A DNA stretch of 64,000 nucleotides from Rhodococcus gordoniae (GTDB lineage: Bacteria > Actinomycetota > Actinomycetes > Mycobacteriales > Mycobacteriaceae), in NCBI RefSeq assembly GCF_001646655.1, contig NZ_LPZN01000013.1, forward strand, positions 1 to 64,000, in the 5' to 3' direction. The position numbers and the translations under genes are program-made. Below the pieces are notes generated by a model. That model was not told the DNA's origin, ran no database searches, and was given only the letters and a program-made list of their open reading frames with translations. This document shows positions 6,600 to 24,984 of this stretch, one piece after another (positions within the stretch are counted from its first letter, which is position 1; each line of letters starts with the position of its first letter).

Positions 6600-7904
6600 T
6601 CAGGAGTGTGTCGGGACGGACTCTCGGCGTGCCGCAGGCACCTTGGTGATCAACGTGAGTACCACCGACACCAGAGCGATGATGCCGATCGTGGTGTAGG
6701 CAAGGGTATAGGCCTTGTCCTCGCCGATCAGCGTGGACGCAATGATCGGGCCGATGATGCCGCCGATGCTCCAACCGATGAGCATGAGTCCGTAGATGGC
6801 ACCGGCATTGCGGACCCCGAAGAAATCGCCGGCAGTGGCGGGCATGGTGCCGAAAGCGCCGCCGTAGCAGAGGTAAATGATCGCGGCCAGGATCGAGAAC
6901 AGCACGACACCGCCGGCGTGCGGCAACACGATCAGGCACACGCCCTGCAGGACGAGCAGTGCGGTGAACGTCCTCATCCGCCCGATGCGGTCGGAGATCG
7001 CTGCCCACACGATCCGGCCGGCACCGTTGAAGATCGCGAGCGCGCCCACGAGTGCCGCCGCGCCGCTCGCGCTGAAGCCGGCGATGTCGGAAGCACTCGG
7101 CTTGGCCTGGGAGATCAGTGAGATGCCTGCGGTGACACACAGGGTGAGGATGGCGGTCAGGAGATACCACTGGGGCGTGCGCAGTGCCTCTCCCTGGGTG
7201 TACTCCTTGCCGCCCGTCGCTCCGGCACCGGTCTTCGAAGCAGGTTCGTAACCGGGCACGGTGTACCCCTCGGGCGGATTGCGGAAGAGCGCTGCGCCGG
7301 CGAGGGACATCACGAGGTAGGCGATGCCCAGCGGCAGGAAGGCGCTCGTGGGATCGTCGGGGTTCCGGTCGATGAGCCACTGCGCGACTGGCGAGGTGAG
7401 CACCGCACCGAACCCGAAGCCGCCCACCGCGAGCCCGGTGATGAGACCGGTCTTGTCGGGAAACCACTTCTGCAGCATGGCGATCGGGACGATGTACGCG
7501 AAGCCCAGACCGAAGCCGCTGATGACACCGTATCCGAGGATGAGCAGCCAGTAATCGTCGGCACCGTTGGTGAACGACGCGAGGAGAATGCCGAGGGCGT
7601 AGATGACCCCGCCGATGAGCGCGACGACGCGCGGTCCCTTCAGATCCTGCAGGCGGCCACCGAGATAGGTGCCGACGAAGATCATGCCGATGGTGACGGT
7701 GAACGGCAGTGACGCCTTGACCGTGCTGAGCTGCCAGGAGTCGGCGCTCTCGAGGGCCCCACCGAAGACCGACCATGCGTAGACCGCGCCGATCGAGAAC
7801 TGCAGCAACAGACCTCCGGCGACGAGCAACCACCGGAAGCTGCCCGGAGGCTGTGCCGTCGCGGTGTCGCCCTGTGGTTCGCGCGTGGGCTTGGCGGAGT
7901 CCAT
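6600..7904 (-). CDS. Major facilitator transporter of the oxalate/formate antiporter (OFA) family
   Basis: The 434-residue protein has twelve predicted membrane segments and the OFA-type N-terminal pattern (FSIGAVYAWSVF), with the cytoplasmic loop motif GGRLQDLKGPR between helices two and three. ATG 7904 follows GAAGGAG at a good distance. It starts 33 bp after the formate dehydrogenase membrane subunit gene on the same strand, so it is very likely the last gene of the selD-fdh operon. Family members exchange small monocarboxylates or dicarboxylates such as formate, oxalate or lactate. Here the context points to formate or oxalate uptake, which is inference. Confidence 0.85.
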   Translation of the reverse strand: MDSAKPTREPQGDTATAQPPGSFRWLLVAGGLLLQFSIGAVYAWSVFGGALESADSWQLSTVKASLPFTVTIGMIFVGTYLGGRLQDLKGPRVVALIGGVIYALGILLASFTNGADDYWLLILGYGVISGFGLGFAYIVPIAMLQKWFPDKTGLITGLAVGGFGFGAVLTSPVAQWLIDRNPDDPTSAFLPLGIAYLVMSLAGAALFRNPPEGYTVPGYEPASKTGAGATGGKEYTQGEALRTPQWYLLTAILTLCVTAGISLISQAKPSASDIAGFSASGAAALVGALAIFNGAGRIVWAAISDRIGRMRTFTALLVLQGVCLIVLPHAGGVVLFSILAAIIYLCYGGAFGTMPATAGDFFGVRNAGAIYGLMLIGWSIGGIIGPIIASTLIGEDKAYTLAYTTIGIIALVSVVLTLITKVPAARRESVPTHS

Positions 7905-7937: not shown

Positions 7938-8957
7938 TCAGCCGCGGTAGCGAACGGGTTCCCCGCGATCGACTCGTTCACGCTGGGGAACGACGGTGTA
8001 TTTGGGATCCTTCGCCGATGCGATGCCGGCCTCGTAGACGCCGAGTCGCGTGCACAGCGAACCGACCATGAGTGCGGCACCGGACACCGCCGACACCGCC
8101 CGATGGCGACGGCCGACGAGCGCCCCGAGCGCACCGGCCACCGTCAATGCCTTGCTGGCCTTCATGAATCGCCCGGCCCGCCCTTGGTGGAGCGTCTCGG
8201 CCGACAGGCCCATGGACTCCTCCATCCGCTGCTCGAGCACGAGTTCGGCGAGCGCACCGCCGACGGCGAAGGTACGCGCCGGTCCGGCCTCGGCAAGCGG
8301 TGCGCCCAGCAGCCCGAGACCACCCGAGGCGGCCGCCGCGGACCCGCAGAACACGAAGGGAATCTCCTTGTAGGCGGAGTGCCAGGCCGGAGTTGCGGTG
8401 TCGGACAGCAGAACACCGGTGTAGGCGGCGACCGGCGGCGCCGTCAGCGCCCCTACGATCCCGGCCGGTCGGCCGAGCGCGAGCAGGAGTCGCACCGGCC
8501 CCCGCTTCCACCGGGAGGGCAGCATCTCGGCGATCTCCGCGACCGCCGCGACACCCGCGAACGGACCGTGCAGCGACAGGATCCACGTACCGACCGACAT
8601 CGGGGAGGTCGGCTTGGCGACCCGCAGCATGTTGAGGAAGCGGCTCGGTTTGCCGAGATCGTGGACGAGGGCACCGACACTCACGAGCAGCGATGCGAGC
8701 GAACCGAATCGGGCCACCCGGCGCAGTGCGGCGCGGCCCGTCAGATCGGCGCCTGCGGCGAGCAGCGAGCTGCCCGCGGCCACGCCGCCTGTGAACAGGT
8801 AGACGGCGATGTCGTGTTCCCACGGCGCCGGTTTCACGATCGGGCGCCCGTAATAGGACTCGAAATCGGCCTCCGGCACCATCACGCGGTCTCCGCCGCG
8901 ACCGCCTCCGGCCCGGCGGGAATCGCCCGGGCTGCCGCCGTGCTGCACCTGGGTCAT
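7938..8957 (-). CDS. NrfD/PsrC-type membrane subunit of formate dehydrogenase
   Basis: The 339-residue protein has about eight hydrophobic segments and the NrfD-family layout: WEHDIAVYLFTGGVAAGSS at the first helix, then the HDLGKPSRFLNM loop and the SVGTW motif. Such subunits anchor iron-sulfur and molybdopterin subunits to the membrane and pass electrons to menaquinone without haem. ATG 8957 overlaps the stop of the iron-sulfur subunit gene (ATGA), which indicates translational coupling. It replaces the cytochrome b556 subunit found in E. coli FdnI/FdoI. The first 25 residues are Gly-rich and probably disordered; a later ATG at residue 26 is an alternative start. Confidence 0.85.
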   Translation of the reverse strand: MTQVQHGGSPGDSRRAGGGRGGDRVMVPEADFESYYGRPIVKPAPWEHDIAVYLFTGGVAAGSSLLAAGADLTGRAALRRVARFGSLASLLVSVGALVHDLGKPSRFLNMLRVAKPTSPMSVGTWILSLHGPFAGVAAVAEIAEMLPSRWKRGPVRLLLALGRPAGIVGALTAPPVAAYTGVLLSDTATPAWHSAYKEIPFVFCGSAAAASGGLGLLGAPLAEAGPARTFAVGGALAELVLEQRMEESMGLSAETLHQGRAGRFMKASKALTVAGALGALVGRRHRAVSAVSGAALMVGSLCTRLGVYEAGIASAKDPKYTVVPQRERVDRGEPVRYRG

Positions 8958-9868
8958 CCGCGCCTCCTCAGGAACGACAGGGCGGCGCCCGCCAGCATCG
9001 CGACGGCTGCGACGGCAGCACGGTTCCACATCTCCGGCAGATCCTTGGTCGTCACCACCGGGTCCGGGGGCAGGCCGTAGACCTCCGGTTCGTCGAGGAG
9101 CAGGAAGAAGGCGCCGGTCCCGCCGACCCCGTCCTCGGGATCGTTGCCGTACAGCCGTGCCTCGCTCACACCGCGCTCGTGCAGGGCCGCCAGGCGCTCG
9201 TCGGCGCGGGCACGCAGTTCCTCGACGTCGCCGAACTGGATCGACTCCGTGGGGCACGCCTGCGCGCAGGACGGTGTCTGGCCGTCGGTGAGCCGGTCGT
9301 AGCAGAGCGTGCACTTCTGGGCGATACCGACCTTCGGGTCGCCCTCCGGGCCCTTGCGGCGGTCGATGACACCGTACGGGCACGCGGCCACGCAGTATCC
9401 GCAGCCGTTGCAGATGTCGTCCTGCACGACCACCGTGCCGAACTCGCTGCGGAACAGCGACCCGGTCGGGCACACGTCGAGGCAGGCCGCGTGGGTGCAG
9501 TGCTTGCACACGTCCGAGGACATCAACCACCGGAAGTCCGGCTTCTCCTCGTCCGGCCGCTCGCTCGGTGCCGCACCGACGGTCGGCATCCCCAGCGACA
9601 CCGCCGGCTTCTTCTCGGCCGGGCGCTCGATGAAGGCGACGTGCCGCCACTGGTTCGCGTTGAGCGAATGACTGTTGTCGTACGAGGTGCCGAGCATCGC
9701 GAACGCGTTCTCGGGAACGTCGTTCCACTCCTTGCAGGCGACCTCACAGGCCTTGCACCCGATGCACACACTGGTGTCGGTGAAGAAGCCCTTGCGAGCC
9801 GGTGGATTCTCGTACCCGGCATCGGGTGCCGGGTCGATCGGTCCGAAGAAGCTGTTGGGGCCGGTCAC
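8954..9868 (-). CDS. fdhB: Formate dehydrogenase iron-sulfur (beta) subunit, four [4Fe-4S] clusters
   Basis: The 304-residue protein has sixteen cysteines in four ferredoxin-type groups: CIGCKACEVAC, CKHCTHAACLDVC, CNGCGYCVAAC and CTLCYDR...CAQAC. This is the beta-subunit pattern of FdnH/FdoH. A hydrophobic C-terminal helix (AAVAAVAMLAGAALSFL) ends in RRRG and probably tethers it to the membrane. The start is GTG 9868, overlapping the alpha-subunit stop as GTGA. Electrons from the molybdenum or tungsten cofactor of the alpha subunit would pass through this chain to the NrfD-type subunit. Confidence 0.92.
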   Translation of the reverse strand: MTGPNSFFGPIDPAPDAGYENPPARKGFFTDTSVCIGCKACEVACKEWNDVPENAFAMLGTSYDNSHSLNANQWRHVAFIERPAEKKPAVSLGMPTVGAAPSERPDEEKPDFRWLMSSDVCKHCTHAACLDVCPTGSLFRSEFGTVVVQDDICNGCGYCVAACPYGVIDRRKGPEGDPKVGIAQKCTLCYDRLTDGQTPSCAQACPTESIQFGDVEELRARADERLAALHERGVSEARLYGNDPEDGVGGTGAFFLLLDEPEVYGLPPDPVVTTKDLPEMWNRAAVAAVAMLAGAALSFLRRRG

Positions 9869-12800
9869 TCGTCCTCCTCCGGAGTGCGTCCGTCATCCGA
9901 GATCGTGACGACGGGTGGGTACACACCGTCGGTTACCCCGGCCCGCCGCGCATATCCCTCGACGTACTCCCGCAGCGCCGGTCCGCTCGGTCGGCGTCCG
10001 GCCCGCACGTCGCACGTACCGACCTTGCTCTCCTGGATGAGCACGTTGGGGTCCAGCGTGATCCCGATCAGATCGTTGGTCGAGTCGCCGGTCACCATGC
10101 CGCCGCCACCCCAGTGGTAGGGCATCCAGATCTGGTGCACGGTGCGGCCTTCGACCTTCAGCGGACGCAACCGCTCGGTCACCAGTACCCGGCCCTCGAC
10201 CGCCGAGCGGGCGGTGATCACGTGGCACCAGCCCATGTGCTCGAGTCCGCGCTCGGCCGCCAGGGCGGGGGAGACCTCCACGAACATCTCCGGTTGCAGT
10301 TCGGCGAGATGTTCGAGATAGCGGCTCATCCCGCCGGCGGTGTGGTGCTCGGTGAGACGACTCGTCGTGAACACGAAGGGGAAGACGTCGCTGTGTTCCT
10401 CCGGCGGTGAGGGGTTCATCGGATTGTCGTCGCGCCGGTACTCCATGCGCGTCGGGTTGGCCTGCTGCGCGTAGAGCGGATTGCGGAACGGCGACTCCAC
10501 CGGTTCGTAGTGCGTCGGCATCGGACCGTCGACGAGTCCCTGGGGGGCGTAGAGGGCACCCTTGCCGTCGCCCTGCATGATGAACGGATCGATCCCTTCG
10601 ATCGCCTCGACACCGTCGGCGCCGTCGGGGGAGCGGTAGCTCGGCGGCTTCGTCTTCTCGAAGTCCGGCACGTCCGCGCCGGTCCACTGCTGTGCGTCCT
10701 CGTCCCACCACACGTAGGCCTTGCGTTCGCTCCACGGCCTGCCCTCGGGGTCGGCGGATGCCCGGTTGTAGAGGATGCGGCGGTTCATCGGCCACGCCCA
10801 GCCCCACTCGGGAGCCACGAACGACTGCTCGTGACGGGACTTGCGACGGTTGGCCTGATTGACGCCGTCGGCATAGACCCCGGTGTAGATCCAGCAGCCA
10901 CCTAGCGTGGAGCCGTCGTTCTTCATCTCGGTGAACGACGACAGCGGCCGCCGGGTCGCGACGTCGTAGCCGTTGATCTCCATGAGCACCGCTTCGGCAC
11001 TCGGCTCGTCGTGCTCCCCGTGTACGGGATAGTCCCATGCCAGGTCGAGCAGCGGACGGTCGCGCTCGTCGGTGGACGCGGCCAGACGCTCCCGCATCAT
11101 GCGGCCGAGGTGGTAGAAGAACCACAGTTCCGAGCGGCAGTCCTCGGGCGGCTCGACGGCCTTCTCCCGCCACTGCAGCATCCGCTGGGTCTGGGTGAAA
11201 GTTCCTTCCTTCTCGGCGTAGGAAGCCGCCGGGAACAGGAACACCTCGGTGGCGCACTCCTCGGTCACGATCTCGCCGGTCTCGACCTCCGGGGAGTCCT
11301 TCCAGAAGCTCGCGCTCTCGATCTCGAACAGATCGCGCACCACGAGCCAGTCGAGGTTCGCCATCCCGAGCCGCTGGGCGCGCCCGTGAGCGGAGCCGAC
11401 GGCCGGGTTCTGACCGAGAAGGAAGTAGCCCTTGACCTTTCCGTCGATCATGTCGAGCACCGAGCGGTAGGTGCCGTGGTCGCCGGTGATCTTCGGCATG
11501 TGGTCGAAGCAGTAGTCGTTGTCGGCGGTCGCCGCGTCGCCCCAGTACGCCTTGAGCAGGTTCACGGCGTAGGCGTCGGCCTTCGACCAGAAGCCCTTGC
11601 TGCCCGGGTTGCGGACGCTGTCGACCCAATCGGTGAACGAGTGGTGCTTGTTCGCATCGGGCATCGGCAGGTAGCCGGGCAACAGGTTGAACAGCGTCGG
11701 GATGTCGGTCGATCCCTGGATGCTGGCGTGACCGCGCAGCGCCATGATGCCTCCGCCGGGGCGGCCCATGTTGCCGAGCAACAACTGCAGGATCGCACCG
11801 GTGCGGATGTACTGCACACCGACACTGTGCTGGGTCCAGCCCACGCTGTAGACGAGCGCCGTCGTCCGCTCCCGACCGGAGTTCTCGGTCCACGCGCGGC
11901 AGACGTCGAGGAAGTCCTCCTGCGAGACGCCGCACACCTGCTCGACCACCTCGGGGGTGTAGCGGGCGAAGTGCCGCTTGAGCACCTGGTAGACGCACCG
12001 CGGGTGCTGCAGGGTCTCGTCGCGCCTCGGGTGGCTCGCCGTCTGCATGCCGTGCGACTCGTTCTGCAGGCCCGCGGCCGTGTCCCGATGCTCGGCGTGT
12101 TCCTCGGCATTGTCGGCCTGCGACGTGTGCAGGTCGCCGGATTCGTCCTCCACGTCGTACTGCCAACTCGTCGGATCGTAGGTCCGCTTCTCGGGGTCGA
12201 AGCCCGAGAAGAGCCCGTCGAGGTCGTCGGTGTCCTCGAACTTGTCGCTGACGAGCACCGCGGCGTTCGTGTAATCGACGACGTACTCGCGGAAGTCCAG
12301 CTCGTTGCTCAGGACGTAGTTCACGATGCCGCCGAGGAAGGCGATGTCGCTGCCGACCCGGATCGGGACGTGCTTGTCCGCCACCGCGCTCGTACGGGTG
12401 AAGCGCGGGTCGATGTGGATGACGCTGGCACCGCGTTTCTGGGCCTCCACGACCCACTGGAAGCCCACCGGGTGGGCTTCGGCCATGTTGGAACCCTGGA
12501 TGATGATGCAGTCAGCGTTGGCCAGGTCGGCTGTATAGCCGGTGGCGCCGCCGCGCCCGAAGCTGGTCCCCAGACCGGGGACGGTGGCGGAGTGTCATAT
12601 ACGGGCCTGGTTCTCGATCTGGACCGCCCCCATCGCTGTGAACAGCTTCTTGATGAGGTAGTTCTCCTCGTTGTCCAGCGTCGCACCGCCGAGACTGGCG
12701 ATGCCCATCGTGCGCCGGACACGGCGGCCCTTGTCGTCGAACTCCTGCCACGTCTCGCGACGGGTCTTCAGCACGCGATCGACGACCATCTCCATGGCCG

Positions 12801-13164
12801 TGTCGAGGTCGAGATCTTCCCATTCGGTGCCGTAGGGCCGGCGATAGCGGATCTTGGTCTCGCGCAGCTCGCTGGTGACAAGATTCTTGCTCGCCGAACC
12901 CTTGGGACACAGCCGTCCGCGGTTCACGGGACTGTCGGAGTCACCTTCGATCTGGACGATCCGTTCGTCCTTGACGAAGATCTTCTGTCCGCATCCGACA
13001 GCGCAGTAGGGACACACGCTGCGCGCGACACGATCGGCGGTGGAGGTGCGCGGTTCGATCTCGTCGGTACGACGGGAACGCGCGGCTCTGCCGCGCCCGA
13101 GCAGGTCTTTACCGAGGAACTGGCGCAGGACGGGCCAGGGCAGGGACGTGTCCTTCTCCGTCAT
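9865..13164 (-). CDS. fdhA: Selenocysteine-containing formate dehydrogenase alpha (catalytic) subunit
   Basis: The reading frame runs 1100 codons from ATG 13164 (AAAGGAG six bases upstream) to the stop at 9865, with one internal TGA at codon 190. The residues around it (NQARI-U-HSATV) align with the selenocysteine site of E. coli FdnG (NQARV-U-HGPTV), and the frame continues for 910 more codons of clear formate dehydrogenase sequence. The N-terminus binds a [4Fe-4S] cluster (CPYCAVGCG, then LCPKG). Molybdopterin domains follow, including the C-terminal cofactor-binding region. No twin-arginine signal with a hydrophobic core is seen, so the enzyme should face the cytoplasm, unlike FdnG. Automated annotation would split or truncate this gene at the TGA. 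Confidence 0.95.
12566..12582 (-). promoter_or_regulatory. Bacterial SECIS hairpin in fdhA mRNA
   Basis: The mRNA reads GUCCCC-GGUCU-GGGGAC, a perfect 6-bp stem with a five-base loop. Counting the U of UGA as 1, the GGUCU loop occupies bases 22-26. That is the same sequence and register as the SelB-binding loop of E. coli fdhF as I recall it. The G and U of this loop are the bases SelB is known to read. Confidence 0.85.
12595..12597 (-). other. Recoded in-frame UGA, selenocysteine 190 of FdhA
   Basis: TGA at codon 190 lies in phase with both flanking halves of fdhA. It falls at the metal-ligand position that is selenocysteine or cysteine in all formate dehydrogenases, followed by His as in the active-site U/C-H pair. 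A SECIS-like hairpin follows, and all four selenocysteine genes are adjacent. Confidence 0.95.
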
Positions 13165-13274: not shown

Positions 13275-14309
13275 TCAGCGCACCCGAATCGCGTGCTCGC
13301 TCGCGGGGATCACCTCGCCGATCACCGGATGACCGGGGATCTCCCCGACGACCAGGAGACCGCCGGATGTCTGAGCATCCGCGAGCAGCAGCAGTTCGTC
13401 GTCGTCCACCTCGGAGTCGACCTCGTCGCGCACCCAGTCGAGATTGCGACGGCTCCCGCCGGGCACGAAACCCTCCGCGAGTGACTCGCGCGCTCCCGCG
13501 ACGTACGGCACGGCCGCGGCATCGAGCACGGCGGTCGTGCCACTGGCCCGCATCATCTTCATCAGATGGCCGAGCAGACCGAAACCCGTGACGTCGGTGG
13601 CGGCGCGGACACCTGCGGCGTGGGCGAGTTGCGCGGCCTCGCGGTTGAGGGTCGTCATCACCGCTACCGCCTCCTCGAACCGCTCGCCGGTGGCCTTGTG
13701 ACGGTTGTTGAGGATGCCGAGGCCGAGTGGCTTGGTGAGGGTGAGCGGCAGGCCGGGTGTCGCAGCGTCGTTGCGCAGCAGGCGATCCGGATCGCCGAGC
13801 CCGGTCACCGCCAGTCCGTACTTCGGTTCGCGGTCGTCGATGCTGTGCCCTCCGGCGAGATGAGCACCCGCCTCGGCGCACGCGTCGGCACCGCCCCGCA
13901 TCACCTCGGCTGCGAGTTCGAACGGGATGAGTTCGCGCGGCCAGCCCAGGAGGTTGACCGCGACGATCGGCGTGCCGCCCATCGCGTAGACGTCGGACAT
14001 GGCATTGGTGGCGGCGATGCGGCCCCAGTCGTAGGCATCGTCGACGACCGGGGTGAAGAAGTCGGCCGTCACGATGACGGCCCGTCCGCTCCCGTCGGGT
14101 GCGGGGTCGATCCGGACCGCGGCGCCGTCGTCGCCGTTCTCCACACCGACCAGCAGTTCGCCGGTCGCTCGTCCACCCTGCAGGCCACCGAGTACCCGTT
14201 CGAGTTCGCCCGGCGGAACCTTGCACGCGCAGCCGCCGCCGGCCGCGTACTGGGTGAGTCGGATGGCGCCCTCGGGAAGGTCGACGTGTGCGGTCATACG
14301 ACCGAACAT
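13275..14309 (-). CDS. selD: Selenide, water dikinase (selenophosphate synthetase)
   Basis: The 344-residue enzyme makes selenophosphate from selenide and ATP, the selenium donor for selenocysteine. The active-site segment GGGCACK has Cys27 and Lys30, so this SelD uses cysteine and is not itself a selenoprotein. The Asp-rich ATP/Mg region (TADFFTPVVDD) and the RIAATNAMSD segment, matching E. coli SelD, follow. An in-frame ATG at 14297 is an alternative start that removes four residues; neither has a strong ribosome binding site. fdhA begins 110 bp downstream on the same strand. The gene is divergent from tRNA-Sec, whose 5' end is 47 bp away. Confidence 0.94.
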   Translation of the reverse strand: MFGRMTAHVDLPEGAIRLTQYAAGGGCACKVPPGELERVLGGLQGGRATGELLVGVENGDDGAAVRIDPAPDGSGRAVIVTADFFTPVVDDAYDWGRIAATNAMSDVYAMGGTPIVAVNLLGWPRELIPFELAAEVMRGGADACAEAGAHLAGGHSIDDREPKYGLAVTGLGDPDRLLRNDAATPGLPLTLTKPLGLGILNNRHKATGERFEEAVAVMTTLNREAAQLAHAAGVRAATDVTGFGLLGHLMKMMRASGTTAVLDAAAVPYVAGARESLAEGFVPGGSRRNLDWVRDEVDSEVDDDELLLLADAQTSGGLLVVGEIPGHPVIGEVIPASEHAIRVR

Positions 14310-14355: not shown

Positions 14356-14450
14356 GGAGGTGGTTCTCGTCTGGTGACGGTCGCGGTCTTCAAAACCGTT
14401 GTGGCCCAGTATCTGGGCTGGGCGGGTTCGATTCCCGTCCGCCTCCGCCA
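14356..14450 (+). tRNA. selC: tRNA-Sec(UCA)
   Basis: This 95-base tRNA has the selenocysteine features: an 8-bp acceptor stem (GGAGGTGG with CCGCCTCC, one T-G wobble), a discriminator G with encoded CCA, an anticodon loop CTTCAAA with UCA that reads UGA, and a long variable arm. The T loop is TTCGATT. Its length equals that of E. coli selC. It is transcribed with selA, which starts 21 bp downstream. Confidence 0.95.
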
Positions 14451-14471: not shown

Positions 14472-15788
14472 ATGAGGAGGCGCGTGCCGGATCCGCGACG
14501 GGATGTTCCCCGCACCGACCAGGTCCTGGCCGATCCGCGCCTGCGCGAAGCCGTCGACCGGCTCGGCTCCCGTCTGGTCAAGCAGACCGTGGTCGCGGCC
14601 CAGCAGCGGTGCCGCGACGGAGAGATCGAGCCGGGGGCCGTCGCCGACGTCGCAGCCGAATCGTTGCCGCAACAGGCGGCCACCCTGCGTCGCGTCCTCA
14701 ACGCGACCGGCGTGGTGGTGCACACCAATCTCGGCCGCGCCCCCCTCTCCCGCGCGGCGGTCGAAGCCGTGACGACCGCGGCGGGCGCGACCGATGTCGA
14801 GCTCGATCTGGCCACCGGCAGGCGCGGGCGGCGCGGCCGCGGCGCTCTCGAGGCGCTCGCCGAGCAGGTACCGGATGCCGGAGGCGTCCACGTGGTCAAC
14901 AACGGTGCCGCCGCTCTCGCTCTGGCCACGCGGGTGCTTGCGCGCGGGGGCCGCTCGATCGTGATCGCGCGGGGCGAACTGGTCGAGATCGGCGACGGCT
15001 TCCGGATCCCGGAACTGCTGGAATCGGTCGGTGCCGCACTGCGGGAGGTCGGTACCACCAACCGTGTCCGCCTGAGCGACTACGCCGCGGCCGTCGACGA
15101 CGACACCGCCTTCGTCCTCAAGGTGCATCCGTCGAACTTCACGGTCACCGGCTTCACGTCGTCCGTCTCGGTCCGCGAACTCACGGGGCTCGGTCCGCCC
15201 GTCGTGGTCGACATCGGGTCGGGACTGCTCGCACCGCATCCACGCCTGCCGAACGAGCCCGACGCCACCAGTGCCCTGCGCGCCGGCGCCGACCTGGTCA
15301 CGGCTTCGGGCGACAAGCTGCTGGGTGGTCCGCAGGCGGGGCTGCTGCTCGGACGGGCCGAGCTGGTGGAACGCCTGCGCCGCGATCCGTTCGCACGGGC
15401 ATTACGCGTCGACAAGCTCACCCTCGCCGCGCTGGAAGCGACCCTGACGGGACCGGCGCCTCCCGTCGCGGCAGCACTGGCCACGCGGCCGGAGGACCTT
15501 CGCGCCCGTGCCCGGGCGATCTGCGCTGCGCTGCCTGCCGAGTGCGAGCCCGAGGTGGTCGACTCCGACGGCGTCGTCGGTGGTGGCGGCGCCCCGGATG
15601 TGACCCTGCCGAGCGTGGCGATCGCGCTGCCCGAACACTTCGCCGTGCCGTTGCGTCTCGGCGAACACCCGGTCGTCGGCCGTGTGGAACGGGGCAGGTT
15701 GCTGCTCGACCTGCTCGCCGTCGACCCCGGTGAGGACCGCGATCTGATCGGCGCCGTGACGCGTGTGGCCCGCCGCGAAGGACGCTGA
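14472..15788 (+). CDS. selA: L-seryl-tRNA(Sec) selenium transferase
   Basis: The 438-residue PLP enzyme converts Ser-tRNA-Sec to Sec-tRNA-Sec using selenophosphate. The cofactor lysine is K282 in SGDKLLGGPQAG, which matches the E. coli motif. The N-terminal tRNA-binding domain and the NATGVVVHTNLGRA segment are intact. ATG 14472 is given as the start; an in-frame GTG at 14484 lies just after AGGAGG but only three bases away, so the start is uncertain by four residues. The stop codon overlaps the selB start by one base. Confidence 0.94.
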   Translation: MRRRVPDPRRDVPRTDQVLADPRLREAVDRLGSRLVKQTVVAAQQRCRDGEIEPGAVADVAAESLPQQAATLRRVLNATGVVVHTNLGRAPLSRAAVEAVTTAAGATDVELDLATGRRGRRGRGALEALAEQVPDAGGVHVVNNGAAALALATRVLARGGRSIVIARGELVEIGDGFRIPELLESVGAALREVGTTNRVRLSDYAAAVDDDTAFVLKVHPSNFTVTGFTSSVSVRELTGLGPPVVVDIGSGLLAPHPRLPNEPDATSALRAGADLVTASGDKLLGGPQAGLLLGRAELVERLRRDPFARALRVDKLTLAALEATLTGPAPPVAAALATRPEDLRARARAICAALPAECEPEVVDSDGVVGGGGAPDVTLPSVAIALPEHFAVPLRLGEHPVVGRVERGRLLLDLLAVDPGEDRDLIGAVTRVARREGR

Positions 15789-20261: not shown

Positions 20262-21143
20262 ATGCAGGTTCCTGGCCCATTCGAGTACGAGCGTGCCACC
20301 GGAGTGGATCACGCCGTCGAGTTGCTCGACCGGCACGGAGAGGGGGCCCGGGTCGTCGCCGGCGGACACAGTCTGCTGCCGATGATGAAACTTCGACTCG
20401 CGAATCCGGAGTACTTGATCGACATCAACGATCTCGCGGACGAACTCGATCACATCGTGTTCGAACCCGGGTCCGTGCGCCTCGGTGCCCTGGTCCGGCA
20501 CCGCCGGCTTCTCGAATCCGACGAACTCGCCGAGATCTTCCCGATCTTCCGCGATGCCGAGCGAGTGATCGCCGATCCCGTCGTCCGCAATCGTGGAACG
20601 CTCGGTGGGTCGTTGTGTCAGGCAGATCCTGCCGAGGATCTGTCCACCGTGTGTGCAGTGCTCGGCGCGACCTGTGTCGTACGCGGACCGGGCGGGGTGC
20701 GCGAGCTCGATTTCCACGACTTCCATCTCGGCCCCTACGAGACGGCGGTCGCCCCGAACGAACTGCTCGTCGAGGTGCGGCTGCCGAGGAAGGGCACCGG
20801 GGCCAGTGCGTACGAGAAGGTCGAGCGTCGCACCGGCGACTGGGCGGTGGCCGCCGCGGGTGTCGCGCTGTGGACGTCGGGAGGACGGATCACCGACGCA
20901 CGGGTCGGGCTGACGGCCGTGCGCGGCGACGACGAGGCGTTGTCGGCGATCACCGACCTGCTGCGGGGTGCGCCACCGTCCGACGACCTGTTCCGAGAGG
21001 CCGGCGCCGCAGCCGCGCGGGCCTGCGATCCCGAGACCGACCAGCGTGGCACCGCCGCCTACAAACGTCACCTCGCGTCCGAGTTGACGGTGCGTGCCCT
21101 GCGCCGAGCCGCCGAACGTCTCGGCGCCACCGAAAGGGTGTGA
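20262..21143 (+). CDS. coxM: Aerobic carbon monoxide dehydrogenase, medium (FAD) subunit
   Basis: The 293-residue subunit has the FAD-binding motifs AGGHSLLPMMK and the TLGGSLCQADPAED segment found in CoxM and xanthine dehydrogenase flavin subunits. It takes electrons from the [2Fe-2S] subunit and passes them to the respiratory chain. ATG 20262 follows GGGAG by seven bases. It is first of six tightly packed cox genes; coxS starts five bases after its stop. A -10-like TACTAT lies at 20181-20186 upstream. Confidence 0.92.
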   Translation: MQVPGPFEYERATGVDHAVELLDRHGEGARVVAGGHSLLPMMKLRLANPEYLIDINDLADELDHIVFEPGSVRLGALVRHRRLLESDELAEIFPIFRDAERVIADPVVRNRGTLGGSLCQADPAEDLSTVCAVLGATCVVRGPGGVRELDFHDFHLGPYETAVAPNELLVEVRLPRKGTGASAYEKVERRTGDWAVAAAGVALWTSGGRITDARVGLTAVRGDDEALSAITDLLRGAPPSDDLFREAGAAAARACDPETDQRGTAAYKRHLASELTVRALRRAAERLGATERV

Positions 21144-21147
21144 TCCG

Positions 21148-21633
21148 ATGCAGATCTCGATGACAGTCAACGGCGAGAACGTCACCGCCGACGTCGAACC
21201 TCGAACTCTGCTCGTGCATTTCCTGCGAGACCACCTCGGTCTGACCGGAACCCACTGGGGATGCGACACGAGCAATTGCGGAACGTGCGTCGTCTCCGTG
21301 GACGGCGAACCGGTGAAGTCGTGCACCACCCTGGCGGTCATGGTCGCCGGCCACGAGGTGCTCACCGTCGAAGGACTCGAACGCGACGGCGTCCTCGACC
21401 CGGTGCAGGAAGGATTCGTGCGCTGCCACGGGCTGCAGTGCGGCTTCTGCACCCCGGGAATGATGATCACCGCCCGGGCGCTGCTCGATCGCGATCCCGA
21501 CCCCGACGACGCGACGATCCGCGAGGCGATCTCCGGGCAGATCTGCCGCTGCACCGGCTACACCACCATCGTCCGGTCGGTCCGGTGGGCCGCCGAACAC
21601 TCCTCGACCTCACAGCCCACGGAGGTGTCGTGA
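21148..21633 (+). CDS. coxS: Aerobic carbon monoxide dehydrogenase, small [2Fe-2S] subunit
   Basis: The 161-residue protein has an N-terminal plant-type ferredoxin site (CDTSNCGTC, then a cysteine in SCTT) and a C-terminal helical site (CGFCTPGM and CRCTGY). This is the two-cluster pattern of molybdenum hydroxylases. ATG 21148 gives the usual N-terminus. The stop TGA overlaps the coxL ATG by one base. Confidence 0.94.
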   Translation: MQISMTVNGENVTADVEPRTLLVHFLRDHLGLTGTHWGCDTSNCGTCVVSVDGEPVKSCTTLAVMVAGHEVLTVEGLERDGVLDPVQEGFVRCHGLQCGFCTPGMMITARALLDRDPDPDDATIREAISGQICRCTGYTTIVRSVRWAAEHSSTSQPTEVS

Positions 21634-24026
21634 TGACCGCGGTCGAACCGGACATGCGCCCGGAGGAACAGGACAACGATCGCACGCCGTGTGGACACGG
21701 CCGCATGCTGCGCAAGGAGGACCCGCGCTTCGTGCGCGGCCGCGGCACCTACGTCGACGATGTCAGGCTGCCCGGCATGCTGCATCTCGCAGTGCTCCGA
21801 TCGCCGGTCGCGCATGCGCGGATCAACAGCATCGATACGTCCGCCGCCCTCGCACACTCGAAGGTGCGGGCGGTGATCACGGGCGCCGACCTGGCCGAGA
21901 AGGGCCTGGCGTGGATGCCGACACTGTCGAACGACGTGCAGGCCGTGCTCGCCACCGACAAGGTGCGCTTCCACGGCCAGGAGGTCGCGTTCGTCGTCGC
22001 CGACGACCACTATTCGGCGCGCGACGCCCTCGAACTGATCGACGTCGACTACGAGATGCTCGACCCGGTCGTCGATGTGCGCACGGCCCTGTCGCCCGAG
22101 GCACCGGTGATCCGGACCGATCTCGACGGGAAGACCGACAACCATTGCTTCGACTGGGAAACCGGCGATGCGGCGGCCACCGACGCGGTCTTCGCGAAGG
22201 CCGACGTCGTCACCCGGCAGGAGATCGTCTATCCGCGGGTGCACCCGGCGCCCATGGAAACGTGCGGTGCGGTCGCCGATTACGACCGGATCTCCGGAAA
22301 GCTGACGCTCTGGTCCACCACACAGGCCCCGCACGCCCATCGCACGCTGTACGCACTGGTCGCGGGTCTGCCCGAACACAAGATCCGCGTCATCTCGCCC
22401 GACATCGGCGGTGGATTCGGCAACAAGGTGCCCATCTACCCCGGTTACGTCGGGGCGATCGTCGCGTCGCTGGTCACCGGACGGCCCGTCAAGTGGATGG
22501 AGGACCGCAGCGAGAACCTCATGAGTACCGGCTTCGCGCGCGACTACATCATGATCGGGGAGATCGCGGCGACGAAGGAAGGCCGCATCCTCGCCATCCG
22601 GTCCCGTGTCCTCGCCGACCACGGCGCGTTCAACGCCACCGCGGCCCCGGTGAAATATCCGGCCGGCTTCTTCGGGGTGTTCACCGGCAGTTACGACATC
22701 GAGGCCGCGTACTCCCACATGACCGCGGTCTACACCAACAAGGCACCCGGCGGTGTCGCCTACGCGTGCTCGTTCCGCATCACCGAAGCCGTGTACTTCG
22801 TCGAACGGCTCGTCGATTGTCTGGCCTACGACCTCGATATGGACCCGGCCGAACTACGACTGAAGAACCTTCTGCGCCCCGAACAGTTCCCGTACACGAG
22901 CAAGACCGGCTGGAAGTACGACTCCGGCGACTACGAGACCACCATGCGCAAGGCCATGAACCTCGTCGGATACGAGGATCTGCGGCGCGAACAGGCCGAA
23001 CGCCGCGCACGGGGCGAACTGATGGGCATCGGCATGTCGTTCTTCACCGAGGCCGTCGGCGCGGGGCCGCGCAAGGACATGGACATCCTCGGTCTCGGCA
23101 TGGCCGACGGCTGCGAACTGCGCGTCCATCCCACCGGTAAGGCCGTGGTGAGGCTGTCGGTGCAGTCCCAGGGGCAAGGACACGAGACGACCTTCGCGCA
23201 GATCGTCGCGGAGGAGATCGGCATCCCGCCCGACGACATCGACGTCGTCCACGGCGACACCGACAACACCCCCTTCGGACTCGGCACCTACGGAAGCCGC
23301 TCGACACCGGTGTCCGGCGCGGCCGCCGCGCTGGTCGCCCGCAAGGTGCGCGACAAGGCGAAGATCATCGCATCGGGCATGCTCGAGGTCTCCGTCGCCG
23401 ATCTCGAATGGGAGAAGGGCACCTTCCGGGTCAAGGGCGACCCGGCGGCGGCGGTCACGATCCAGGACATCGCGATGCGGGCCCACGGCGCCGGCGATCT
23501 GCCCGAAGGTCTCGAAGGCGGTCTCGAGGCGCAGATCTGCTATAACCCCGAGAACCTGACCTATCCCTACGGCGCCTATTTCTGTGTCGTCGACGTCGAT
23601 CCCGGCACCGCGGAGGTGAAGATCCGCCGGTTCCTGGCCGTGGACGACTGCGGCACCCGCATCAACCCGATGATCATCGAAGGGCAGGTGCACGGTGGCA
23701 TCGTCGACGGGATCGGCATGGCCCTGATGGAGATGATCGCGTTCGACGAGAACGGAACGTGCCTGGGCGGGTCGTTCATGGACTACCTGATCCCCACCGC
23801 CCTCGAGGTACCCACGCTCGAGACGGCGTTCACCGTCACCCCGTCACCGCATCACCCGATCGGCGCGAAGGGCATCGGCGAATCCGCCACGGTCGGTTCC
23901 CCACCCGCGATCGTCAACGCCGTGGTCGATGCGTTGAAACCCCTCGGCGTCCGGCACGCCGACATGCCGTTGACACCGTCGCGGGTGTGGGAAGCCATGC
24001 AGGGTCGCGCGACCCCGCCGATCTGA
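21633..24026 (+). CDS. coxL: Form I aerobic carbon monoxide dehydrogenase, large molybdenum subunit
   Basis: The 797-residue catalytic subunit binds the Mo-Cu molybdopterin cytosine dinucleotide site that oxidises CO to CO2. It has the form I active-site loop AYACSFR (pattern AYxCSFR; form II is AYRGAGR). The cysteine of this loop carries the copper. Other matches to the Oligotropha enzyme are GGGFGNK, SQGQGHETT, DCGTRINPMIIEGQVHGG and GAKGIGES. The x residue is Ala where Arg is commonest. ATG 21633 overlaps the coxS stop. Confidence 0.93.
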   Translation: MTAVEPDMRPEEQDNDRTPCGHGRMLRKEDPRFVRGRGTYVDDVRLPGMLHLAVLRSPVAHARINSIDTSAALAHSKVRAVITGADLAEKGLAWMPTLSNDVQAVLATDKVRFHGQEVAFVVADDHYSARDALELIDVDYEMLDPVVDVRTALSPEAPVIRTDLDGKTDNHCFDWETGDAAATDAVFAKADVVTRQEIVYPRVHPAPMETCGAVADYDRISGKLTLWSTTQAPHAHRTLYALVAGLPEHKIRVISPDIGGGFGNKVPIYPGYVGAIVASLVTGRPVKWMEDRSENLMSTGFARDYIMIGEIAATKEGRILAIRSRVLADHGAFNATAAPVKYPAGFFGVFTGSYDIEAAYSHMTAVYTNKAPGGVAYACSFRITEAVYFVERLVDCLAYDLDMDPAELRLKNLLRPEQFPYTSKTGWKYDSGDYETTMRKAMNLVGYEDLRREQAERRARGELMGIGMSFFTEAVGAGPRKDMDILGLGMADGCELRVHPTGKAVVRLSVQSQGQGHETTFAQIVAEEIGIPPDDIDVVHGDTDNTPFGLGTYGSRSTPVSGAAAALVARKVRDKAKIIASGMLEVSVADLEWEKGTFRVKGDPAAAVTIQDIAMRAHGAGDLPEGLEGGLEAQICYNPENLTYPYGAYFCVVDVDPGTAEVKIRRFLAVDDCGTRINPMIIEGQVHGGIVDGIGMALMEMIAFDENGTCLGGSFMDYLIPTALEVPTLETAFTVTPSPHHPIGAKGIGESATVGSPPAIVNAVVDALKPLGVRHADMPLTPSRVWEAMQGRATPPI

Positions 24027-24048: not shown

Positions 24049-24984
24049 GTGGAACGAGCGGAGTACGAGGACATGGACCTTGCGGTGCGGGCAGCACAGT
24101 TGCGCAGCGAACGCCGCCCGTTCGTGGAAGCGACCGTTGTACGGGCACAACCGCCGACGTCCGCGCACTCGGGCGACCGGGCGCTCGTCCACGCCGACGG
24201 CACGATCGAGGGGTTCGTGGGCGGACAGTGCACCGAGAACTCGGTGCGCGAAATGTCCCGCACGGTGCTCGAGCGAGGGGAGAGCATGCTCCTACGGGTG
24301 CTGCCGGCCGGAGCCGCCGAGTTCCCCGACACTCCGGGGGCGACGATCGCGGTCAACCCGTGCATGTCCGGTGGGGCCACCGAGATCTTTCTCGAGCCGC
24401 GGATGCCTGCGCTCGTGGTGGCCGTCTTCGGGGACTCGCCCGTGGCCGACGCCGTGAGCGACTTCGCGCGGCGCGTCGACTACTCGGTGGAACGGATCCG
24501 CGGGACGCGCGTGCCCGCCGAGGCTTCGGTGGTGATCGTCGCGAGTCACGGAGGCGACGAGGGGAGTGTGATCCGCGCGGCGCTCGACGCCGGAAGCCGC
24601 TATATCGGTCTGGTCGCCAGTCACACCCGTGGCGCCGCGGTGCTCGACGAGGTGGATCCGACCGACGACGAGCGTGCCCACGTGCACACCCCGGTCGGGC
24701 TCGATATCGGTGCCCGCACCCCCGCGGAGATCGGACTGTCGATCGTGGCCGACATCGTGCGAGTCGCGCGCAGCGGCGGCCTCACCCGCCCCTCCGAGGA
24801 GAGTTGTCGACGCGTCGAGGTGCCGAGGGAGGCGGAGTCGAAGCCGCAGACGGCCGTCGACCCGGTGTGCGGGATGACCGTCACGATCACCGAGTCCACC
24901 CCGCACCTCGTCGTTGCGGGCCGGACGATGTGGTTCTGCTGCCCGGGTTGCCGCAGCCGCTTCGAGAAGGACGACGTCGCGTGA
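24049..24984 (+). CDS. coxF: XdhC/CoxF-type maturation factor with C-terminal YHS domain
   Basis: The 311-residue protein joins an N-terminal XdhC/CoxI domain (residues 1-90, with GFVGGQCTENSVRE), an XdhC Rossmann domain (about 115-245) and a C-terminal YHS metal-binding domain (DPVCGMTV...FCCPGC). XdhC proteins deliver sulfurated molybdenum cofactor to their enzyme, and this one fits CoxF. GTG 24049 follows AGAAGGA. The stop overlaps the coxD start (GTGA). Confidence 0.85.
   Translation: MERAEYEDMDLAVRAAQLRSERRPFVEATVVRAQPPTSAHSGDRALVHADGTIEGFVGGQCTENSVREMSRTVLERGESMLLRVLPAGAAEFPDTPGATIAVNPCMSGGATEIFLEPRMPALVVAVFGDSPVADAVSDFARRVDYSVERIRGTRVPAEASVVIVASHGGDEGSVIRAALDAGSRYIGLVASHTRGAAVLDEVDPTDDERAHVHTPVGLDIGARTPAEIGLSIVADIVRVARSGGLTRPSEESCRRVEVPREAESKPQTAVDPVCGMTVTITESTPHLVVAGRTMWFCCPGCRSRFEKDDVA

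Follow-up and report, generated by a model that had tools for sequence, protein, structure and literature searches.

A predicted self-contained selenocysteine and formate dehydrogenase island in the chromosome of Rhodococcus gordoniae

The stretch of DNA analysed here, referred to as the window, comprises the first 64,000 nucleotides of Rhodococcus gordoniae contig NZ_LPZN01000013.1. It contains fdhA, which would encode the catalytic subunit of a selenocysteine (Sec) formate dehydrogenase, on the minus strand at 9865..13164. Read from 13164 to 9865, the frame has 1100 codons with the closing TGA counted, and so 1099 residues, if its sole internal stop, the TGA of codon 190 (12597-12595, minus strand), is read through. 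Standard translation yields instead two open reading frames, one of 189 amino acids and an ATG-started one of 873. Both halves match NCBIfam NF041513 (formate_DH_Act) in register, at profile positions 5-185 and 223-1066, and the whole protein scores above the cut-offs of this family (1958 bits, cut-off 1400) and of TIGR01553 (948 bits, cut-off 814). A first-pass annotation of this DNA had described a TGA in phase with both halves of an 1100-codon formate dehydrogenase, and the frame reading and profile register show its coordinates and phase to be right. It had also called for an alignment to FdnG of E. coli (1kqf). In the alignment, the TGA coincides with the active-site residue X of this protein and with that of a second solved formate dehydrogenase, 1h0h; we take X in both to be selenocysteine. 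The flanks of the site, said earlier to match FdnG, read NQARI-x-HSATV in the window, NQARV-x-HGPTV in FdnG and HQARI-x-HSATV in 1h0h, i.e. they resemble both proteins and are identical to neither.

The genes adjoining fdhA specify a full Sec-decoding set. Directly upstream on the same strand is selD (selenophosphate synthase, 13275..14309; TIGR00476, 383 bits, cut-off 125). Running divergently from selD-fdhA, on the plus strand, are selC, a tRNA-Sec with anticodon TCA (14356..14450; RF01852, 74.6 bits, gathering score 47), selA (Sec synthase, 14472..15788; TIGR00474, 411 bits, cut-off 268) and selB (Sec-specific elongation factor with a C-terminal winged-helix domain, PF09107; 15788..17530; TIGR00475, 252.4 bits, cut-off 242.25). 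All four exceed curated cut-offs, and their adjacency is evidence that the first-pass annotation left unmentioned.

The same components occur together across the genus. Among 18 Rhodococcus genomes, nine possess fdhA over cut-off, each with one TGA, and the same nine carry SelB at E<=1e-60 (over the curated cut-off in 7 of the 9) and a tRNA-Sec over the gathering score; at these thresholds the other nine had no match to fdhA, SelB or tRNA-Sec. An ARAGORN scan of 40 loci located tRNA-Sec in 19 fetched stretches, always with anticodon TCA. Since the seven loci with TAG at the site had no tRNA-Sec within the fetched stretch, the tRNA was sought in whole genomes, where its anticodon was CTA in 5/5 genomes with a TAG fdhA and TCA in 4/4 with TGA. 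The anticodon thus tracks the site codon (9/9), so the tRNA matching this position is tRNA-Sec. Locus L086, from a metagenome-assembled genome labelled Frankiales, has TAG at the Sec site and a CTA tRNA-Sec; in the tree it clusters with a genome of Geodermatophilaceae, so the Frankiales label may be loose. UAG-encoded Sec is already known from Geodermatophilaceae (PMC5330540, where Mukai 2016 is cited; this and the other papers cited here are drawn on as excerpts).

The site was compared in two sets. One comprises 89 sequences: the window, eight genus loci and 80 named loci fetched from genome contigs (the top 80 among 171). The other is made up of the 30 best loci at order level. In the 89, R. 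phenolicus and Rhodococcus sp. HM1 each occur twice, as named and as genus loci of identical sequence, other species possibly stand in both the named and order sets, and the counts and p-values ignore relatedness. If the TGA were an ordinary stop, fdhA would be a pseudogene or two separate genes, which is how the frames of 189 and 873 amino acids appear on standard translation. Against this, the codon is TGA in all eight other genus loci and in 73/80 named relatives and TAG in the remaining 7 (82 TGA, 7 TAG and no other codon in the 89), and in each of the 89 sequences a single alignment crosses it, at 62-100% identity. We give an ordinary stop next to no chance. It is also very improbable that the TGA is read through as another residue, by a near-cognate tryptophan tRNA or as cysteine. 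Cysteine forms of the enzyme do occur in relatives, the order loci having 18 TGA, 6 TAG and 6 TGC at the site, but tRNA-Sec follows the codon (TGA/UCA, TAG/CUA) in the nine genomes mentioned above, and the Sec machinery accompanies fdhA in the genus. Locus L191 (G243:C4) is a homologue with a TGA Sec codon and, eight codons upstream, an in-frame TAG where the window has glutamine; it may represent a pseudogene, a sequencing error or something odder.

Just 3' of the codon lies a putative SECIS hairpin, GUCCCC-GGUCU-GGGGAC (12566..12582, minus strand), assigned on its shape, position and covariation. Its 6-bp helix begins 12 bases, and its loop (12576-12572) 18 bases, past the end of UGA 190. 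The loop therefore occupies bases 22-26 with the U of UGA as 1, the register given in the first-pass annotation and presumably that of E. coli fdhF. In one sequence alone the hairpin is weak evidence; comparative tests make it strong. It might be a by-product of GC-rich coding sequence with no role in insertion, and when the same peptide was recoded by local codon usage (200000 draws) the full helix arose in 17.9% of the synonymous sequences and the loop in 20.7%, with the two together in 3.8%. Several further results favour this explanation or otherwise weigh against Sec insertion through the hairpin. The folding energy of the 51-nt single sequence is not significant (z -0.28) and its minimum-free-energy fold is a structure other than the SECIS stem, so thermodynamic folding of the single sequence was dropped as support. 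Among the Rfam SECIS families only SECIS_3 (RF01989) matched at the site, with 18.6 bits where the gathering score is 63, and the window SelB scored 238.7 in the genome search, just under the cut-off of 242.25 that the full window protein passes.

The comparative results run counter to a by-product. Outside Rhodococcus and Nocardioides, 73 sequences were compared, 57 of them distinct, and 342/342 pair cells are standard. Among the 57 distinct rows 26 cells are double-changed as against a shuffle mean of 4.6 (0/500 shuffles), and the observed covariation score was likewise reached by 0/500 shuffles. Covariation is carried mainly by a pair between the third base of a valine codon and that of a glycine codon, two synonymous wobble positions, which occurs as CG, UA, UG, GU and GC; when the partner is shifted by one to three columns, pairing falls to 32-68%. 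A covariance model built from the 57-row set has its top hit in the 4.8-Mb genome at the window site (E 3.9e-13). The helix is complete in 113/113 stop-codon homologues (the 89, and 24 from the order-level set of 30) and in 0/6 cysteine homologues (L162, L163, L165, L166, L167 and L171, of which L165-L167 come from the window's own family), and the loop too is lost in 6/6 of the latter. The five of these six cysteine rows that were placed in the tree form one clade, i.e. one change of state. The presence of the helix in every stop-codon homologue examined and in none of the six cysteine homologues examined amounts to a clean natural experiment, and we attach only a very slight probability to a hairpin without function. 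A stem-loop just 3' of the Sec codon, conserved with compensatory changes, is what defines a bSECIS, and the hairpin is classed as such by position, shape and covariation; given its low SECIS_3 score, it is not filed under RF01989.

We are highly confident that this region of the Rhodococcus chromosome represents a self-contained Sec and formate dehydrogenase island, in which UGA 190 of fdhA would be read as Sec by way of the hairpin. The adjacent Sec genes, co-occurrence in the genus, agreement of codon and anticodon, covariation and loss of the helix from cysteine forms lend strong support to predicted Sec decoding of the UGA, and bear out the central proposal of the first-pass annotation, a SECIS-directed UGA in a formate dehydrogenase gene. 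From these data we infer Sec in the protein, catalysis, the electron route and transport, with catalysis and the route to an NrfD-type subunit resting on family membership.

Downstream of fdhA, also on the minus strand, are the probable partner subunits. Profile searches identified fdhB (8954..9868), a 304 amino acid 4Fe-4S electron-transfer subunit whose GTG start overlaps the fdhA stop; its C-terminus carries a hydrophobic stretch, and it lies under the cut-off of the FDH-beta model (178 bits, cut-off 334.7). An nrfD-like membrane subunit (7938..8957; PF03916, 72.8 bits over the residues of 7938-8930) has an ATG start overlapping the fdhB stop. Next is a gene at 6600..7904 (minus strand) whose family match is to major facilitator superfamily (MFS) transporters of the lactate / oxalate-formate antiport group. 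It also adjoins the cluster in five Nocardioides loci and in genome G015; it was not found near the cluster in G003, G011 and G014, and is therefore not a fixed part of it. Formate dehydrogenases of this kind need FdhD, which is encoded on the same contig outside the window (74248-75006).

In the proposed mechanism, SelD would make selenophosphate, SelA would convert seryl-tRNA-Sec to selenocysteyl-tRNA-Sec, and SelB would bring the latter to the ribosome and meet the fdhA hairpin, so that UGA 190 is read as Sec. FdhA would then act as the catalytic subunit of a formate dehydrogenase that depends on molybdenum or tungsten, oxidizing formate to CO2 at its Sec-ligated metal. Electrons would pass through the iron-sulphur clusters of FdhA and FdhB to the NrfD-type membrane subunit and probably on to menaquinone, while the neighbouring MFS protein may carry formate.

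Other candidate selenoproteins were sought in the genome. The UGSC family had no matches, and since the same search matched nothing in control genomes the result is uninformative. Neither the six AhpC-TSA matches nor the eight further stretches matching NF041513 contain an internal stop. The second genome match of the SECIS model (E 0.93) is not credible; the model is fdhA-like and leaves other selenoproteins possible. The search being limited, so is the statement that FdhA is the only evident client of the Sec system.

Elsewhere in the window, 20262-24026 (plus strand) holds aerobic CO dehydrogenase genes for an FAD subunit, a 2Fe-2S subunit and CoxL, followed next by an XdhC-like gene at 24049-24984. 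CoxL scores 1427 bits against TIGR02416 (cut-off 991) and carries the motif AYACSFR, which we take to be that of form I CO dehydrogenase; the two small subunits lie under the cut-offs of the models matched. Modules for CO and formate oxidation thus stand near one another.

The history of the island was traced through FdhA, SelB and gene order. The nearest named loci to FdhA, among the best 80 of 171, are in Rhodococcus sp. HM1 and R. phenolicus DSM 44812, each 90% identical; identity is 82-86% to the five Nocardioides loci and 67-69% to the mycobacterial ones. SelB is 72-80% identical to its Nocardioides counterparts, 49-50% to those in eight mycobacterial loci with a nearly whole SelB and 40-46% to those in three partial ones. 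Trees were built from 63 of 119 available rows, chosen by us, for FdhA and from 28 of the 33 loci with a SelB match for SelB, the latter with a long-branch warning from the program; the groups tested were named after the first tree had been seen. Rhodococcus falls inside Nocardioides in both. A clade of Rhodococcus plus Mycobacteriaceae was rejected (p 1e-22), and Nocardioides as one clade was not (p 0.0502).

The island is situated between a fatty-acid-desaturase-like gene and gdhA both in the window and in G015, the window having three further genes on the left-hand side. By coordinates, the SelB match of G004, G005, G008 and G013 ends within about 0.85 kb of gdhA. A different contig carries the island in G003, G011 and G014, where the desaturase gene adjoins gdhA. 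Seven of the nine island-free genomes were fetched (all but G006 and G009), and these have the desaturase and gdhA homologues together without the island. G007 has homologues of the window's three left-hand neighbours between these two genes; its 44% match to the window's LuxR-like gene, with the query in a shifted frame (4 stops as X), shows homologous DNA only. Judged from these comparisons, lateral gain is the probable origin of the island, whose nearest relatives beyond the genus are in Nocardioides; a history of loss in some lineages is the less likely alternative. Transfer from Nocardioides to Rhodococcus is likely, and no firmer, because of the p of 0.0502 and the post hoc naming of groups.

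Of the 148 plasmid records matched, one is described here. Plasmid pYA7-1a of Arthrobacter sp. YA7-1 (L190 11983-21856), typed as conjugative, contains a complete Sec formate dehydrogenase island in the order fdh, 4Fe-4S protein, nrfD, selD, tRNA-Sec, selA, selB; a transposase of the Tn3 family lies on the far side of selB. Codon 189 of the plasmid fdh is TGA, and the helix is intact. We put at about even the chance that the Sec system and its only evident client travel as a cassette of ~10 kb, that a single lateral transfer, with a Nocardioides-like donor, brought both to an ancestor of Rhodococcus, and that the cassette came to occupy two or more chromosomal positions within the genus, with conjugative plasmids such as pYA7-1a as a plausible vehicle. 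It would be an example of a whole Sec system and its client that appears to have moved as a unit and is present on a conjugative plasmid. It is already published that the Sec trait has been transferred horizontally, into Arthrobacter among others, and that fdhA has been so transferred in Pseudomonadales (PMC5029168, PMC1794560, as excerpted), and these surveys of the Sec trait are prior art for the present work.

The first-pass annotation had supposed that few actinobacteria were known to make selenoproteins. This does not hold, in view of published cases and of NF041513 matches over cut-off in 201/298 sampled genomes of the order (cysteine forms included), with a stop codon at the site in 24/30 of the best loci. 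Nor does its expectation that automatic annotation would give two broken genes fit the pYA7-1a homologue, which RefSeq presents as one 3333-bp CDS across the TGA (one record examined); excerpts of a 2026 review state that such genes are frequently mis-annotated (PMC13188914). A literature search covering few subscription papers turned up no passage that describes this gene in Rhodococcus, and we make no claim that it is unpublished.

The closest described parallel is in Actinomycetospora chiangmaiensis DSM 45062, where, according to the excerpted account (PMC7176365), formate removal depends on selenite, and FdhA1, SelA, SelB and SelD were detected at low abundance. Its FDH1, like the window system, is a membrane-bound formate dehydrogenase with a Sec-containing FdhA (1078 aa), encoded in one cluster that holds beta and gamma subunits, a permease, SelA and SelB; it differs in that the genome encodes three Sec formate dehydrogenases and that SelD is listed outside the FDH1 cluster (PMC7176365). 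Locus L107, the one locus fetched from this genome, which may or may not be FDH1, is 63% identical to the window FdhA, and within the fetched stretch of L107 the window FdhB, NrfD and Sel proteins had no match. Corynebacterium aurimucosum likewise has an fdnG that contains an internal UGA and lies in a cluster with selABCD, the genes by which Sec is made and incorporated; this case, as excerpted, is known from the genome only, and the likeness is by description, not sequence (PMC2830990).

E. coli FdnG (1kqf) and 1h0h belong to the same catalytic family as the window protein, with their X aligned with its TGA. By hydropathy, the one measure applied to a possible twin-arginine signal of the FdnGHI type, the window FdhA seems to differ, with no strongly hydrophobic stretch near its N-terminus; the maximal 19-residue Kyte-Doolittle mean for stretches starting in residues 1-60 is 0.99. 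The system also departs from FdnGHI in that its membrane subunit matches NrfD and its beta subunit stays below the FDH-beta cut-off, and a search confined to the window operon gave no match to a cytochrome b gamma-subunit model. The UAG-Sec formate dehydrogenases of Geodermatophilaceae share the FdhA family and the hairpin with the window, but use UAG and a CUA tRNA-Sec where the window has UGA and UCA. At the level of whole-protein score the window FdhA fits NF041513 without difference. The gene is of a well-known and common kind in actinobacteria, and the window adds a well-supported Rhodococcus case to this widespread family.

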